A stretch of 64,000 nucleotides of DNA from assembly GCA_036488875.1 (NCBI GenBank), contig DASXGW010000013.1, positions 293,281 through 357,280 of the forward strand, written 5' to 3'. Positions within the stretch are counted from its first letter, which is position 1. Each line of letters opens with the position of its first letter. This stretch comes from Candidatus Baltobacteraceae bacterium (GTDB lineage Bacteria; Vulcanimicrobiota; Vulcanimicrobiia; Vulcanimicrobiales; Vulcanimicrobiaceae). Below are positions 2,098-31,575 of this stretch, in pieces. A program made the position numbers and the translations under genes. The notes beneath the pieces were generated by a model. The model did not search any database. It saw only the letters and a program-made list of their open reading frames with translations, and was not told where the DNA came from.

Positions 2098-3846
2098 ATG
2101 ATGGGCCATCTTCGCACTGCATTCCTTGTTGCGTTCAGTGCCACGTTCGCGGCAGCGTGCTCGGGCGGATCGATGCTGCCGGCACGGGCGCCCGGCGACT
2201 CTGCACCCGGTAATGCCAACGCGGCGGCTCGCGGCGAAATCCTCGCAACCGCGCCCGACCTGCGTCAATTGGGCGTGACCGATGCCGGCACGGCACCGCG
2301 TTCGACGACGCTGTCCCTGGCGATGGTGTTGCGTTACCGAAATCAGAGCGCGCTCGATCGGCTCGTCGCAGATCAATCGGATCCAAGGTCGCCGCTATAT
2401 CGCCGCTGGCTGAGCAACTCGCAGTTCGATGCGCGCTTCGCCCCGAGTAAAGCGACCTACCGCACGGTGCTTGCGTCGCTGCGGCACGCCGGCTTTCACA
2501 TCGATCGTGCGTACGAAAACCGCACGCTGGTCGACGCGAGCGCAGGCGTCGCCGTCATCGCGCGTTATTTCCGTACGTCCATCCATCGCGTGCGGGCCGC
2601 TAAAGGTGGCTCGGAGTACGTCAACGTTCGCCCGGCTTACGCGCCGGCTGCGCTGGCCGGCACATTGCTGAGCGTCGACGGCCTCGACACGGTTGCCGTC
2701 GTGCATCCTTTCTACGCGCTCATCGGTGGCGCGGCCGCGACGCGCATCCCGTCTGCGACCACTACGTCGGCGCTCTTCGGTCCAATCAGCTCCGTCACGC
2801 ACGCTCGCGGATACGCACCGGCGGCGTTTTGGGCGGGCTACGATTTTCCGATCCTGCACGCGGCCGCGTCGGGTCACTATGACGGAAGCGGACGCGCGTC
2901 GGGCATCGTGATCGACGCGGACTTTGCCGAAAGCGATCTGCGCGGTTTCCTCACCTACTTCAAGATCGCGCGCACGGGGCCGGCAACGCACCGCGTGCTG
3001 CTGCACGGCGGGCCGCCTCCCGGCGACGCGTCGACGGATTCCGTCGAGGCCGCGCTCGATGCCGAGGCGATCGTCGGCGGCGCGCCCGGCACCGCCCTAA
3101 CCGTCTACGAAATCAAGAACCTCAAGAATAAGAGCATTACCGACGCGTATGACGCGGCCGTTTCGCAGAACGCGGTCGACGCCCTCAACTCCAGCTTCGG
3201 CGGGTGTGAAGCGGCAATCGGTACGAAGACCGTCGCCGCGTGGAGCGCGCTGGCCGAACAAGGCGCGAGCAAAGGCACGACGTTTCACGCGGCCACGGGC
3301 GATAGCGGCGGAAGTTTGTGCGCGAACGCGCCCGCGAGTTCGCCGTACTTTGTGGCCGTGGGCGGCACGGCACTCACCGTCGGCTCCGGCGGCGCGTGGG
3401 CGCTCGAGTCCGCGTGGACGGACGGCGGCGGCGGAATCTCGACGATCTTCGCGCGTCCCGCCTGGCAAGCGACGACGGCCGGTACGATCGATCGGGGCCG
3501 CAACGTTCCCGACGTGGCGCTCGACGCCGATCCGTACACGGGTATCGCGCTGTACTACACCGGCACGTTCAACACGCAATACGATCCGCTCGGCGGCACG
3601 TCGTTGGCTTCGCCGCTCTTTGGGGCAGCGGTCGCGGAGCTGGATCAAGTGAAGGGCGGCCGTCTCGGCTTGGCCGCCGGAGGCTTGTACGCGGCCTTTG
3701 CCGCGCACGGCTACGGATCCGGAGCGACGCCGTACTTCCACGACGTCGTGCAAGGCAACAACGGTACCTTTTACGCGAGCACCGGCTACGATCTCACCAC
3801 CGGCATCGGATCGATCGACGCATGGAACCTCGCGAGCATTCTGTAA
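2098..3846 (+). CDS. S53 family (sedolisin/kumamolisin) serine-carboxyl peptidase, lipoprotein
   Basis: An exported acid protease of 582 residues. A signal peptide ends in a plausible lipobox with Cys21 (FAAAC). Residues about 65-200 form the pro-kumamolisin activation domain, with the LYRRWLSNSQFDARFAPS segment. The catalytic domain carries the family triad Glu317/Asp321 (EAALDAE) and Ser502 in GGTSLASP, with Asp402 (ATGDSGG) as the oxyanion-hole acid. The C-terminal calcium site is the FHDVVQGNN...GYDLTTGIGSID segment. All key residues are present, so it should be active. It heads a run of lipoprotein genes on the same strand and probably degrades external protein at low pH (family knowledge). 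Confidence 0.9.
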   Translation: MMGHLRTAFLVAFSATFAAACSGGSMLPARAPGDSAPGNANAAARGEILATAPDLRQLGVTDAGTAPRSTTLSLAMVLRYRNQSALDRLVADQSDPRSPLYRRWLSNSQFDARFAPSKATYRTVLASLRHAGFHIDRAYENRTLVDASAGVAVIARYFRTSIHRVRAAKGGSEYVNVRPAYAPAALAGTLLSVDGLDTVAVVHPFYALIGGAAATRIPSATTTSALFGPISSVTHARGYAPAAFWAGYDFPILHAAASGHYDGSGRASGIVIDADFAESDLRGFLTYFKIARTGPATHRVLLHGGPPPGDASTDSVEAALDAEAIVGGAPGTALTVYEIKNLKNKSITDAYDAAVSQNAVDALNSSFGGCEAAIGTKTVAAWSALAEQGASKGTTFHAATGDSGGSLCANAPASSPYFVAVGGTALTVGSGGAWALESAWTDGGGGISTIFARPAWQATTAGTIDRGRNVPDVALDADPYTGIALYYTGTFNTQYDPLGGTSLASPLFGAAVAELDQVKGGRLGLAAGGLYAAFAAHGYGSGATPYFHDVVQGNNGTFYASTGYDLTTGIGSIDAWNLASIL

Positions 3847-28204: not shown

Positions 28205-28762
28205 ATGAAAAAGATAACGAGGCTACTTACGGTAGGTTTGGCTCTGGCATTTGCGCTCGGCGGCTGCGCCGGAAGCTCCGCAACCAATCCGGCCGGCACC
28301 GGTTCGGGTGCCGGCGATGCGTTGCTCGCGCCGAACGCGCCGCCGGGGATCGACGGCGTTGCCGGCGAGTTCAAAGGAAGCGTTACCGACAGCGTTTTGG
28401 GCAAGGGGAAAGCCGATTTTCAGTTGTCGCAAGTCGTCGGCGGTCAAGCCGGAGGCTCGATGCAGCTCACGTTCGGTAAAGGGACGACGAAGGTCTCGAG
28501 CGCGGTGGCGCTCGACGCAAGCAGCATGAAGAAGATCGACGGCAACGCGGTGGCGTTACTCACCGGCACGCCGCCGTGCACGTTAGCGATCTCGGCCAAG
28601 TTCGACCGCAAGACGTACACACTGAACGGCTCGTATAAGGCGTTCAACAACTGCGCGCCCGGACAAAAAGGCTCGTTCTCGGCGAAGGAACAGTGCTATT
28701 ACGTCGTGGCGAAGCCCCTTGCGGATGGACTCCGGCCGCGCAACCTGCCTAAAGCGTGCTAG
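28205..28762 (+). CDS. hypothetical lipoprotein
   Basis: A 185-residue protein with lipobox LGGC (Cys21). After a Gly/Ala/Pro linker the mature domain is beta-rich (GEFKGSVTDSVLGKGKADFQLSQ, QLTFGKGTTKVSSAVALD) with four cysteines that could form disulfides. No named family recognised. It is divergent from the STAS gene, and its stop overlaps the convergent STAND gene in a shared CTAG. Confidence 0.65.
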   Translation: MKKITRLLTVGLALAFALGGCAGSSATNPAGTGSGAGDALLAPNAPPGIDGVAGEFKGSVTDSVLGKGKADFQLSQVVGGQAGGSMQLTFGKGTTKVSSAVALDASSMKKIDGNAVALLTGTPPCTLAISAKFDRKTYTLNGSYKAFNNCAPGQKGSFSAKEQCYYVVAKPLADGLRPRNLPKAC

Positions 28763-31575
28763 TAGACGGTGGCGGCGGAAAGGGCTCGATCAAGGTCCCA
28801 ACCGGCGCCTTCCGCTAAAAACGCGACGTATCGATCGGTGCCGAGTTTAGCTCGAAGCTCGTTCTGAGTGTCTTGCCATAGTTTCAGTTCATAGCGATCG
28901 CAGGGCCAGTCAAGATCCCTGCGCTGTTTGTCGGCGTATCCGAACAACCTAGCCGCTTGACACGCGTCGCTCTGCGCCGCGAGTACGGCCGCCCAGGTCA
29001 AAGCATAAGCAACGATCAGCGAGTCGCCGGTTTCACGGGCTAGTAAAAGCGCCGTTCGGGTGGTTGGCGCCGCTTTATCGACATCGTCGAGCGCCCAGTA
29101 AATCGCCGAGGCCAAGATGGTCGCCGGAACTTTCGCATTAGCCTTTATCGTTGGTAAAGCGTCCTCGATGAGGCGCGCCGCCTCGGAGAAGTTTTCGACC
29201 TTGCATTCAGAGTCGGCCCACCAGTAGAGAACGTTGGAGCGATCGGCCTCGCGATCGAGCTCCCTAAAAATCTGCGCCGCTTCCGCATACCGTTCACGAG
29301 CGTCTCGAATGTGGCCCGATCCGAGGGCATTCCCGCACCGACCCAGGACGAAGGCAAGCAGCGCGCGATCGTCTATGCGCCGAGCCGCATCAACCGCCTC
29401 CTCACCCGTAACGAGCGCTTCGTGGGACTCACCGGTGTTTTGGAGTTGTTGCGCTACCTGTGAAAGCGATCGTACGATGCCGCGCTGGTCGTTCGCGCGA
29501 CGGTACGAGGTCAGAGCCTTTCGTGAGGACTTCAGCGACTCACTATAGTGGCCTTGGTTGTTGTTAAGCATCGAGAGTACGTACTGTAGCCTTGCTTCAA
29601 TTGCCGGCGTTAGCGACGCGTCGCTCCTTAGAACGTGGTGGCCCCAATCAATGCCTTCTTGCAATAAGGTTAGCCGGAGAAATACCACGCCGAATCCGCC
29701 GGCAAGGCGTGCGGCGACCTCAGGTTCGTTCCCGCCGTTGAGAGCCCATCGCAGCGATGCGCGCACATTGTCGAGTTCGCGTTCGTTCCGCTCCAGCCAA
29801 TCGTCCTTTGGCCCGGTATCGAATTCCTCGTACGCCGCATCGGCAAATGCCGCGAAGGTTCGCGCATATCGCAACATCACGTCGCCCGCTTCGCCGCTCT
29901 TTTCGAGCCGCTCCAGTGCGTAGTGGCGGATTGGTTCCAAAAACCGATAGCGCTGGGTCGTCTCGCTGACGTCGGCAACGAAGAGCGACTTATCGACCAG
30001 CGACGTAATCAAGTCCAGCAGTTCGAGATCGTCGAGGTCGTCACAGCAATACGTCGCCATCGCCGTTTCGAGCGAAACACCGCCGATGAACGGCGAGAGC
30101 TGCATAAAAAGCCGCTGTTCGACCGGGGAGAGCAGGTCGTAACTCCAATCGATCAGTGCATGCATCGTCTGATGGCGTACCAAGGGCTCGCGCCCGCCGC
30201 TGCCCAGGATCCTCAGCTGCAGCCGGTGCGACAACTCCTCGACCGAGATACTGCGCACTCGCGCCGCGGCGAGTTCGATGGCCAGCGCAATGCCGCCGAG
30301 ATGCGAGCAAATGTCGGCAACGGTGGCTCGATTCGTATCGGTGATTTCGAAGCGAGCGTTCACGGCGCGCCCGCGCTCGGCGAAGAGCTGCATTGCGGTC
30401 GCGTCGTCGAGTGACGACAGACGATGCACCACCTCGCCGCCGGTTCCCAAAGGCTCGCGGCTCGTAGCGAGTACGTTGACATTCGGGCACTGCTTGACGA
30501 TCGCGTCGACGACGCGCGCGATATCGGCGATGAGATGTTCGGAGTTGTCAAGGACGAGCAGCAACGCGCGCGGTGCGAGAAATTTTACCACGCGCTCGAG
30601 CGGGTCGGCTTCGCCGCTCTGATCGGCGTCGAGCGCCGAGAGAATGGCACTTGCTACCAGCCGGCCGTCGCCAATTGGCGCGAGGTCGACGAACCACGCG
30701 CCTTCAGTCGTCTCGTCCAACAGCGTCGTCGCGACTTGCAAGGCCAGACGCGTCTTGCCCATGCCGCCCGCGCCGGCGATAGTGACCAGCGGGTTCTTGC
30801 GTACGAGCTCGCAAACGGCGGCGACGTCGTCTTGACGCCCGACGAAGCTGGTCGATTGACGCGGCAGATTGTTCGGCCGCATCGAGAGCCGGCGCGTAGC
30901 TTGCGCGCGCAATCGCGCATCGAGCGCCAGCAATGCGATGCCTGCCGACTCGGCTAGCTCCCCAAGCGCGTGCCGATCTTCAGCGTCGATTTCGACGTGT
31001 TTCGGCGCGAGCGTCAAGAAGCCGACGAGATCGCCGGCGGCCATCATCGGAAACGCCAGCTCACCGAGTGCCGCCGACTCCAGCGCTCGGGGATCGGCCG
31101 GCGCGGCCGACGATCGCAAACGAATGACGAGAGCGTCGTCGGGCTCGACGCAGGTCACCGCCACGTCGAACGTCGAGGCTTCGACGTCGTACGACCCGTG
31201 CCGCAGATAGATCGCCGACCCGTCGGTACCCATCTGATGATCGACCGCTTCGACGACGCGCCGCAGCACTTGCTGCACGTCGTTGAACGACGTGAGTTCC
31301 TTACGCAGCCGGGCTAGGGCGGCGCGCGCTTCGCGCCGCCGCCGCGTGAAAGCCGCTTCGATCGATTCGTCGACCCACCGGTGAAAAGGTCGAAAAGCCA
31401 GAGCGAGTACGACGATGATGACGATTGCGACGATCGTCCCGGCCGTACGCGAATGCGCCGAGATGAAACTCTCGGTCAGACTCTCGGTGACCGCGAGGGT
31501 AAGGAAGAGCGTCGTCGTGACGACGCCGTACGCATAAGCCCGCAAGCGACCGGTCAGTACGCCCTTGCTTACCAT
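28759..31575 (-). CDS. membrane-anchored GAF-STAND NTPase-TPR protein
   Basis: A 938-residue protein. Two N-terminal transmembrane helices (about 17-33 and 45-62) are followed by a linker helix and a GAF-like domain (about 95-220, FPMMAAGDLVGFLTLAPK). The STAND/NB-ARC ATPase has Walker A IAGAGGMGKTRLAL (266-279), Walker B ALLLVLDNSEHL and the sensor NVLATSREPL. About ten TPR-like helix pairs run from about 600 to the end. AfsR/LuxR-type relatives carry a DNA-binding domain at one end; none is visible here. Expected behaviour is nucleotide-dependent oligomerisation upon ligand sensing; the output is unknown. Confidence 0.85.
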   Translation of the reverse strand: MVSKGVLTGRLRAYAYGVVTTTLFLTLAVTESLTESFISAHSRTAGTIVAIVIIVVLALAFRPFHRWVDESIEAAFTRRRREARAALARLRKELTSFNDVQQVLRRVVEAVDHQMGTDGSAIYLRHGSYDVEASTFDVAVTCVEPDDALVIRLRSSAAPADPRALESAALGELAFPMMAAGDLVGFLTLAPKHVEIDAEDRHALGELAESAGIALLALDARLRAQATRRLSMRPNNLPRQSTSFVGRQDDVAAVCELVRKNPLVTIAGAGGMGKTRLALQVATTLLDETTEGAWFVDLAPIGDGRLVASAILSALDADQSGEADPLERVVKFLAPRALLLVLDNSEHLIADIARVVDAIVKQCPNVNVLATSREPLGTGGEVVHRLSSLDDATAMQLFAERGRAVNARFEITDTNRATVADICSHLGGIALAIELAAARVRSISVEELSHRLQLRILGSGGREPLVRHQTMHALIDWSYDLLSPVEQRLFMQLSPFIGGVSLETAMATYCCDDLDDLELLDLITSLVDKSLFVADVSETTQRYRFLEPIRHYALERLEKSGEAGDVMLRYARTFAAFADAAYEEFDTGPKDDWLERNERELDNVRASLRWALNGGNEPEVAARLAGGFGVVFLRLTLLQEGIDWGHHVLRSDASLTPAIEARLQYVLSMLNNNQGHYSESLKSSRKALTSYRRANDQRGIVRSLSQVAQQLQNTGESHEALVTGEEAVDAARRIDDRALLAFVLGRCGNALGSGHIRDARERYAEAAQIFRELDREADRSNVLYWWADSECKVENFSEAARLIEDALPTIKANAKVPATILASAIYWALDDVDKAAPTTRTALLLARETGDSLIVAYALTWAAVLAAQSDACQAARLFGYADKQRRDLDWPCDRYELKLWQDTQNELRAKLGTDRYVAFLAEGAGWDLDRALSAATVY

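Follow-up and report, generated by a model that had tools for sequence, protein, structure and literature searches.

How does a bacterial STAND ATPase pass on its signal if it carries no DNA-binding domain, and what does it sense? Bacteria commonly encode NLR-like STAND proteins, most of them without a known ligand. The gene considered here lies exactly at positions 28759-31575 on the minus strand of the analysed stretch of 64,000 nucleotides (the window), starts with ATG and encodes a protein of 938 amino acids. The initial annotation described this protein as a membrane-tethered GAF-STAND-TPR protein with two N-terminal membrane helices and no DNA-binding domain, a description that is borne out by the open reading frame, Pfam searches, 18 homologues and an AlphaFold2 model.

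Architecture of a STAND protein without HTH domain

All domains are encoded on the minus strand, beginning with an N-terminal membrane hairpin. Membrane helix 2 (residues about 44-63, 31387-31446) is clear, with a mean Kyte-Doolittle value of 2.43. Helix 1 (residues about 12-33, 31477-31542) is weaker in this protein, its value of 1.35 being lower than the maximum of 1.67 found elsewhere in the chain, yet it is kept in 18 of 18 aligned homologues (hydropathy 1.27-2.22) and matches, in alignments, one of the membrane helices of polytopic relatives; both cytoplasmic flanks carry positive residues, and the loop between the helices comprises only about 10 residues. In the AlphaFold2 model (mean pLDDT 79.9, in the membrane part only 37-67) helices span residues 4-38 and 43-96, the latter running continuously from membrane helix 2 into a conserved, positively charged signalling helix (residues 64-98, 31282-31386) that links the membrane to the GAF domain (PF01590, residues 99-215, 30931-31281; E = 4.8e-7, 30.8 bits versus a cut-off of 22.4).

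The GAF domain is followed by the STAND/NB-ARC ATPase core (residues about 240-438, 30262-30858), which is identified by profile and structural matches and harbors the Walker A motif GAGGMGKT (residues 268-275, 30751-30774), and by a winged-helix subdomain inside the STAND core, recognized by its secondary structure in the model (residues about 502-545, 29941-30072). A TPR superhelix, the putative sensor (residues about 563-937, 28765-29889), completes the protein, its helices extending to the C-terminus in the model; it is supported by a TPR_12 match above the cut-off (residues 702-772, E = 2.5e-8) and by structural matches to Rap, NprR and domain III of MalT. In the Pfam scan of the whole protein NB-ARC stayed below its cut-off (E = 3.8e-4, 20.2 bits), as did the other STAND/AAA models, and in the genome search it was marginally above (23.9 versus 23.5 bits). 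The P-loop, the core motifs, the winged helix and the C-terminal repeats nonetheless make the protein a STAND ATPase, and among its structural matches, headed by 6mfv (Foldseek, E = 4.7e-14), are Apaf-1, MalT and PH0952. No HTH model of Pfam or NCBIfam matched at E < 1, on which ground a hidden HTH domain was rejected, and without a DNA-binding HTH the protein does not qualify as a transcription factor of the MalT/LuxR type. The domain order, the intact ATPase motifs, the membrane hairpin and the lack of an HTH are thus established at the level of sequence.

A search for the same architecture yielded 18 proteins from Candidatus Eremiobacterota that can be aligned with a mean column identity of 53% (one is cut by its contig and two have long alternative starts). 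Residues G268, G270, G271, G273, K274 and T275 of the Walker A motif are invariant, as are other core residues, in 18 of 18 sequences; at such identity and with an invariant Walker A the architecture is not a product of chance. Variability is highest in the C-terminal TPR half (28% identity between the window protein and group A, as compared to 50% for the membrane hairpin), as we would expect of a sensor.

The premise of the initial annotation that STAND proteins with TPRs normally carry an HTH domain or an effector proved to be off. The genome itself contains 12 STAND loci, to only one of which an HTH can be assigned (L046, Pfam), and four of the 12 have no N-terminal extension according to motif labels; Pfam scans covered L002, L003, L044, L046 and the window protein. 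Among the homologous loci, L010 and L048 (both G001) are two genes and not the two ends of one, as the query regions that they match overlap and their identities are different.

An N-terminal slot with interchangeable modules

The front end is homologous to the last two helices, the signalling helix and the GAF domain of polytopic membrane proteins of roughly 600 amino acids (L067-L078, Eremiobacterota; E down to about 1e-38). These differ from the window protein in that they have more membrane helices, lack the STAND-TPR part and show no visible output domain, a PDZ-like match below the cut-off being found in one of the two that were scanned. The TM-GAF module is present in many copies in these genomes, where it also occurs without a STAND core or attached to another TPR protein (L064 and L066, which we take to be 'TolB-like'); all copy numbers are lower bounds, with 5 (protein query) or 14-22 (alignment query) candidates scored per genome.

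This distribution, together with a GAF domain that exceeds the Pfam cut-off and has many invariant residues across the 18 proteins, would also suit a GAF domain that senses a cytoplasmic small molecule, e.g. a cyclic nucleotide that siblings of the cyclase-STAND type produce, with the STAND-TPR part being a passive membrane scaffold. We regard this as improbable, as a passive scaffold would not need the Walker A and core residues that are invariant in all 18 proteins, and ligand-specific residues were not found in the GAF domain.

In sibling STANDs the same slot is occupied by a cyclase, TIR, GGDEF or XRE domain, and those STANDs that are linked to a lipoprotein gene (see below) contain TM-GAF, cyclase or TIR at this position. 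The N-terminal labels of the STAND loci are motif labels; Pfam confirmed the cyclase in L019 and L160, TIR in L035, L037 and L161, XRE in L046 and GGDEF in L044, and found no cyclase domain in L002, which is labelled as cyclase by motif. For the STAND-TPR tree, the grouping of all TM-GAF-STANDs in a single clade was rejected (AU test, p = 6e-7; 34 of the 43 rows of the tree set, omitting L042, which consists mostly of gaps, and eight STANDs of the own genome that are divergent or lack an extension). Moreover, the N-terminal tree, which contains nine of the 14 polytopic proteins tried, five being missed by the motif, groups the same modules differently from the STAND-TPR tree, both trees being quick searches with SH-aLRT support only. 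As judged from these sequence comparisons, the N-terminal TM-GAF is a mobile module that is exchanged among STAND backbones. One chassis with three N-terminal modules constitutes a natural domain-swap series for the function of the slot, and bears on the question whether a membrane-GAF module can replace a cyclase or a TIR domain.

The convergent lipoprotein gene and the genomic neighborhood

On the plus strand, a gene for a lipoprotein of 185 amino acids (28205-28762) meets the STAND gene tail-to-tail with an overlap of 4 bp (28759-28762). Its lipobox Cys is residue 21 and is followed by four more conserved Cys residues, the final one being the C-terminal residue; in three of 19 aligned lipoproteins (L021, L024, L029) the lipobox Cys is missing. 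The possibility that this reading frame is an artefact on the strand opposite the STAND gene was rejected, as the overlap does not exceed 75 bp and the frame has its own conserved Cys pattern. The lipoprotein is predicted to be an eight-stranded barrel, based on a model with a mean pLDDT of 63 and structure comparison with Z up to 12.8; Foldseek gave no match to the model at E ≤ 0.001, and the lipoprotein profile reached an E of only 0.08 at best against the sequences of solved structures. A scan for promoters and terminators revealed nothing exceeding shuffles. Both the convergent partner and the module exchange are absent from the initial annotation.

The lipoprotein gene is convergent with the 3' end of a STAND gene in 35 of the 37 genomes of the phylum that match at E ≤ 1e-15, these genomes not being phylogenetically independent, and the two ends are separated by -75 to +66 bp (neighboring genes were called by longest-ORF heuristics). 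This pairing holds whether the STAND bears TM-GAF, cyclase or TIR, and close copies of the lipoprotein number at least about one per genome. Seven weaker relatives of the lipoprotein do not adjoin a STAND gene, nor do three G059 loci and the second of the copies in G079; the locus in G155 lies on a fragmentary contig, and L034 (G059), a STAND of the linked clade, has no lipoprotein neighbor. A second group of TM-GAF-STANDs has an S53 peptidase as partner instead (7/7 genomes), and a paralogue in the own genome overlaps by 4 bp with the gene of an S51-peptidase lipoprotein. Wherever the 3' side is readable (18 of the 20 TM-GAF-STAND genes of the tree set), the neighbor is the lipoprotein (10), S53 (7) or S51 (1). 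The remaining flanking genes are common mainly within one genus, as found by comparing 15 loci, the window and three more.

The lipoprotein might be a passenger, i.e. the overlapping 3' ends might be inherited or transferred as a unit without any functional tie, as end overlaps of 4-75 bp in many pairs make the two genes hard to separate. Lipoprotein and STAND distances correlate overall in a mirror-tree analysis (Spearman 0.52-0.53) with no TPR-specific excess, which agrees with a passenger; as the partial correlations are 0.27 for the core-corrected TPR part and 0.26 between lipoprotein and core, there is no sign of a special TPR-lipoprotein co-evolution. However, several pairs are still linked despite a gap of 1-66 bp, and passenger status does not predict that TM-GAF-STANDs outside the clade adjoin another envelope or peptidase gene, so that we consider a mere passenger unlikely.

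The neighborhood also bears on a second proposal of the initial annotation, namely a defence-type STAND with the membrane helices as effector. In such an NLR-like protein the TPRs would sense a phage protein, resulting in an oligomer whose helices or GAF domains disrupt the membrane and arrest the cell, and the TIR and cyclase versions would be sister effectors. The order effector-STAND-TPR, the siblings with TIR and cyclase in the same slot and the variable C-terminal TPRs are in line with this idea, and characterized antiviral STANDs have N-terminal effectors and C-terminal sensors, e.g. TPRs (PMC10907252). In contrast, PADLOC gave no Avs-type match for the window protein but only weak ones (mad8, TPR, TRIP13), the 10 flanking genes contain no defence genes except for a histidine kinase that cross-matches PDC-M43B, and the helices are part of a receptor-like module of which these genomes contain many copies. 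Moreover, the lipoprotein-linked STAND occurs mostly as one copy per genome and is spread over 15 genera rather than over patchy islands. A role in defence thus appears quite improbable, and the helices as effector are not supported.

Proposed mechanism and relation to known systems

We favor, with confidence and doubt in about equal parts, a membrane-tethered STAND-TPR switch with a functional envelope partner that is encoded tail-to-tail, a reading drawn from sequence, and the arrangement is suggestive of a sensing system made up of two genes, with exchangeable front ends. The membrane-proximal oligomerizing sensor put forward in the initial annotation is compatible with the modelled anatomy, i.e. 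the hairpin, the signalling helix, the GAF domain and the intact STAND-TPR part. By analogy with PH0952 and MalT, the TPR superhelix would hold the ATPase core in a closed state at rest. A signal that is linked to the lipoprotein or its envelope process may then be detected by the TPRs or by the GAF domain, upon which nucleotide exchange would open the core and the proteins would cluster, so that their N-terminal modules meet at the membrane. The signal would finally exit via contacts of the GAF domain and the signalling-helix bundle, not via DNA. As the same STAND-TPR and lipoprotein chassis bears a cyclase or a TIR domain in the sibling genes, one would expect a nucleotide signal or a TIR reaction as their output. 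It is a point against the favored reading that a direct contact of the two products is hard to picture, since the lipoprotein is located outside the cytoplasmic membrane, the TPRs are cytoplasmic and the loop connecting the helices is that short. The lack of a sign of special TPR-lipoprotein co-evolution, the lipoproteins without an adjoining STAND gene or without the lipobox Cys, and the weak hydropathy of helix 1 count against it as well.

A more specific version, which we deem improbable, is an undescribed signalling system in which each STAND reads its own lipoprotein via the TPR superhelix and the outputs (cyclase, TIR or membrane-GAF clustering) are interchangeable. The ligand might be e.g. 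a released peptide or an unexported precursor that accumulates upon export failure, and in the TM-GAF version the clustered signalling helices would generate the output at the membrane. With a STAND subfamily that is tied to a single secreted neighbor in one phylum, a bacterial STAND now has a candidate partner; searches of an open-access library showed no description of this arrangement.

Several known systems share parts of it. Rv0386 from M. tuberculosis has the order class III cyclase-STAND-TPR-HTH and resembles the lipoprotein-sharing siblings in its cyclase-STAND-TPR part, whereas in the window protein TM-GAF replaces the cyclase and the HTH is absent. RRNPP receptors such as Rap and NprR are encoded beside a short secreted propeptide, and the likeness to the window lies in the TPR superhelix (Z 26.3 for Rap and 24.3 for NprR, although helical repeats commonly score high Z) and in the adjacently encoded secreted product; the window protein, however, has a STAND core, and its neighbor is a convergent 185-residue barrel lipoprotein instead of a short propeptide. 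MalT carries a C-terminal LuxR HTH, which the window protein lacks, whereas it adds a membrane hairpin and a GAF domain at the N-terminus. With STANDs of the PH0952/MalT type it shares a STAND core followed by a TPR sensor (PDB 6mfv, 8bob, 1hz4; PMC6468293). Antiviral STANDs/NLRs (Avs) are similar in having an N-terminal module, a STAND core and C-terminal repeats, and TIR siblings add to this likeness (PMC10907252, PMC7159879), but the window protein, with neither a PADLOC match nor a defence neighborhood, is set apart by its receptor-type N-terminus and its conserved lipoprotein neighbor.

Domain architecture and relatives of the window protein

The ORF at 28759-31575 (minus strand) is real and complete and codes for a protein of 938 amino acids (the window protein). 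In a whole-protein Pfam scan GAF (residues 99-215) and TPR models scored above the cut-off and the STAND/AAA models below it, while NB-ARC was barely over the cut-off in a genome search. Pfam and NCBIfam searches detected no HTH at E<1, in agreement with the initial annotation, which had described a protein with no DNA-binding domain. The two N-terminal membrane helices it had proposed hold as well, i.e. the second is clear, and the first is weak in the window sequence, yet retained in 18/18 homologues, with positive residues in both cytoplasmic flanks. The AlphaFold2 model (mean pLDDT 79.9, just 37-67 in the membrane part; pTM 0.57) predicts a helix (4-38), an unbroken helix (43-96) and the GAF fold. 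The ATPase core comes next, then an internal winged helix, and the TPRs form a superhelix.

The named relatives of the N-terminal module (two membrane helices, signalling helix and GAF; TM-GAF) come from Candidatus Eremiobacterota or UBP12 metagenome-assembled genomes, the one exception being a gammaproteobacterial contig, the weakest of the 18. The window protein is matched at E<=1e-20 in 102 of 148 related genomes, many of these matches covering the STAND-TPR part alone. Mean column identity is 53% across 18 aligned proteins of the same architecture, among them one cut by a contig end (L010) and two with long alternative starts (L040, L041), and the front 235 residues reach 63%. By sequence motifs, the 12 STAND loci of the own genome comprise two TM-GAF, two cyclase-like, three GGDEF and one XRE HTH protein as well as four without extension. 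Pfam agrees with these labels for L044, L046, the TM-GAF paralogue L003 and the window protein, and finds no cyclase domain in the cyclase-like L002.

TM-GAF as a mobile module

A search with the N-terminal alignment yielded matches at E<=1e-5 in 91 of 198 genomes, headed by 21 matches that are strong and full (E<=5e-102), plus a half-module truncated by a contig end; many weaker matches follow at E of about 1e-38 and higher. Twelve of this weaker tier were inspected (L067-L078); all are polytopic membrane proteins about 560-740 residues long with the TM-GAF module as their C-terminal part, and no output domain was seen among them. Pfam, run on two of the 12, returned GAF above and a PDZ-like domain below the cut-off for one, and GAF below the cut-off for the other. 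This polytopic family without visible output domain is large (L067-L078, L094, L095; own-genome example G000:C2:120669-121301). The module itself has at least 14 matches in the own genome and at least 16 in G061. The 21 strong matches include two, in G061 and G081, where it sits on a different TPR protein; such fusions are L064 and L066 (= L081, L080), which we take to carry a TolB-like domain.

On the N-terminal tree a branch supported at 100 sets the 20 two-helix modules apart, whereas on the STAND-TPR tree the TM-GAF-STANDs are scattered over several places, the window protein and a same-genus relative being nested in a cyclase-STAND group (support 97). A single clade of TM-GAF-STANDs on the STAND-TPR tree is rejected, as the constraint uniting them is 110 log-likelihood units worse (p-AU 6e-7). 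As one tree unites the modules and the other scatters their backbones, the sequences indicate that TM-GAF has moved between STAND backbones. In G102 a TM-GAF-STAND, a cyclase-type STAND and a polytopic membrane-GAF gene adjoin one another (L101:327-8857), plausibly a place where such fusions could arise.

Convergent genes at the STAND 3' end

The next gene downstream (28205-28762, plus strand) is convergent with the STAND gene, overlaps it by 4 bp and codes for a lipoprotein of 185 residues. Besides its lipobox, this product has four other conserved Cys, the final one at the very C-terminus. Cys ends 23/23 lipoproteins of the pairs compared; the lipobox Cys is missing in 3 of 19 aligned relatives. 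The family has no Pfam name, the best match being the Mycobacterium 19 kDa antigen, below the cut-off and for 1/19 members. The window lipoprotein is modelled as an eight-stranded barrel-like fold at modest confidence, with a mean pLDDT of 63 that rises in the core.

With the lipoprotein profile, E<=0.001 is reached in 40 of 148 genomes, with about one copy per genome among the matches listed. At E<=1e-15, matches across the phylum occur in 37 of 149 genomes (15 genera), and in 35 of these 37 the gene converges on the 3' end of a STAND gene, at gaps of -75 to +66 bp (41 linked rows, six being duplicates of a locus). The exceptions are G059, with three loci, all unlinked, and G155, where the contig is fragmentary. 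Seven weaker relatives and an additional copy in G079 are likewise unlinked. Viewed from the STAND side, the lipoprotein is present at 22 of 23 clade members with readable 3' side (24 rows of the STAND-TPR tree, the 3' side of L010 being unread) and absent at L034 of G059. The G059 relatives (L146:4728-5708, L147:5077-5610, L148:5244-5828) are partly duplicated, and the STAND of this genome lacks an adjoining partner. The modules found on linked STANDs are TM-GAF (in 10 genomes), cyclase or TIR (G003, G030, G070), labels that leave out five loci (G148, G150, G151, G153, G154); in several, including G001, G028, G038 and G080, the contig ends before the N-terminus. The STANDs L012, L013, L017, L018 and L020 share a similar C-terminal tail (GDGVGTLL-like), which lies inside the stretch overlapping the opposite-strand lipoprotein gene and may therefore be a by-product of this overlap.

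TM-GAF-STANDs outside the lipoprotein-linked clade lack this lipoprotein beside them. The tree set contains 20 TM-GAF-STAND genes, and the 3' side is readable for all but L010 and L042, which contig ends truncate. The neighbour is the lipoprotein in 10 of the 18 readable cases, the S53 peptidase in seven and the S51 lipoprotein in one. A kumamolisin-like S53 peptidase gene (e.g. L083:6088-7644, L086:4436-5962, L093:2743-4269) adjoins the STAND of one TM-GAF-STAND subgroup in 7/7 genomes (G002, G007, G026, G031, G035, G039, G041), with convergent orientation in five of them and an upstream position in the other two. Its identity rests on kumamolisin (E 7e-85) and Pro-kuma_activ in P0002; the L086 copy has no Pfam match. 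Across 16 searched genomes the close S53 form shares a contig with the STAND, the exceptions being an additional, incomplete copy in G007 and a piece at a contig edge in G035. The window also encodes a distant S53-like peptidase (2098-3846, plus strand; 31% to the linked S53), well away from the STAND gene. The own-genome paralogue (L003/L097) overlaps at its 3' end by 4 bp with an S51-peptidase lipoprotein gene (L097:6404-7876), whose product also ends in Cys.

A proposed membrane-anchored switch and known STANDs

The anatomy of the window protein supports a membrane-anchored switch, in which the TPR would serve as sensor arm of an ATP-dependent core, and the GAF with its signalling helix would be placed at the membrane. 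According to PMC6468293, STANDs with TPR sensors are kept closed through sensor contacts and multimerise into hubs upon induction. Gene linkage suggests that the lipoprotein may be a ligand, regulator or client of the STAND. A direct TPR:lipoprotein contact is disfavoured, as the two reside in different compartments and co-evolution specific to the TPR was not detected. The initial annotation had also considered a defence-type STAND with the membrane helices as effector, a reading weakened by the neighbour genes and the PADLOC result.

In searches of the open-access literature we found no description of a membrane-GAF front end without HTH on a STAND, nor of a conserved convergent lipoprotein neighbour; STAND-TPR proteins, GAF domains, cyclase-STANDs and TIR-STANDs are already known. 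The best structural matches of the window protein model are the STAND-TPR protein PH0952 and Apaf-1, and VIA-align likewise matches it to Apaf-1, together with NRC1, Rap, NprR and MalT.
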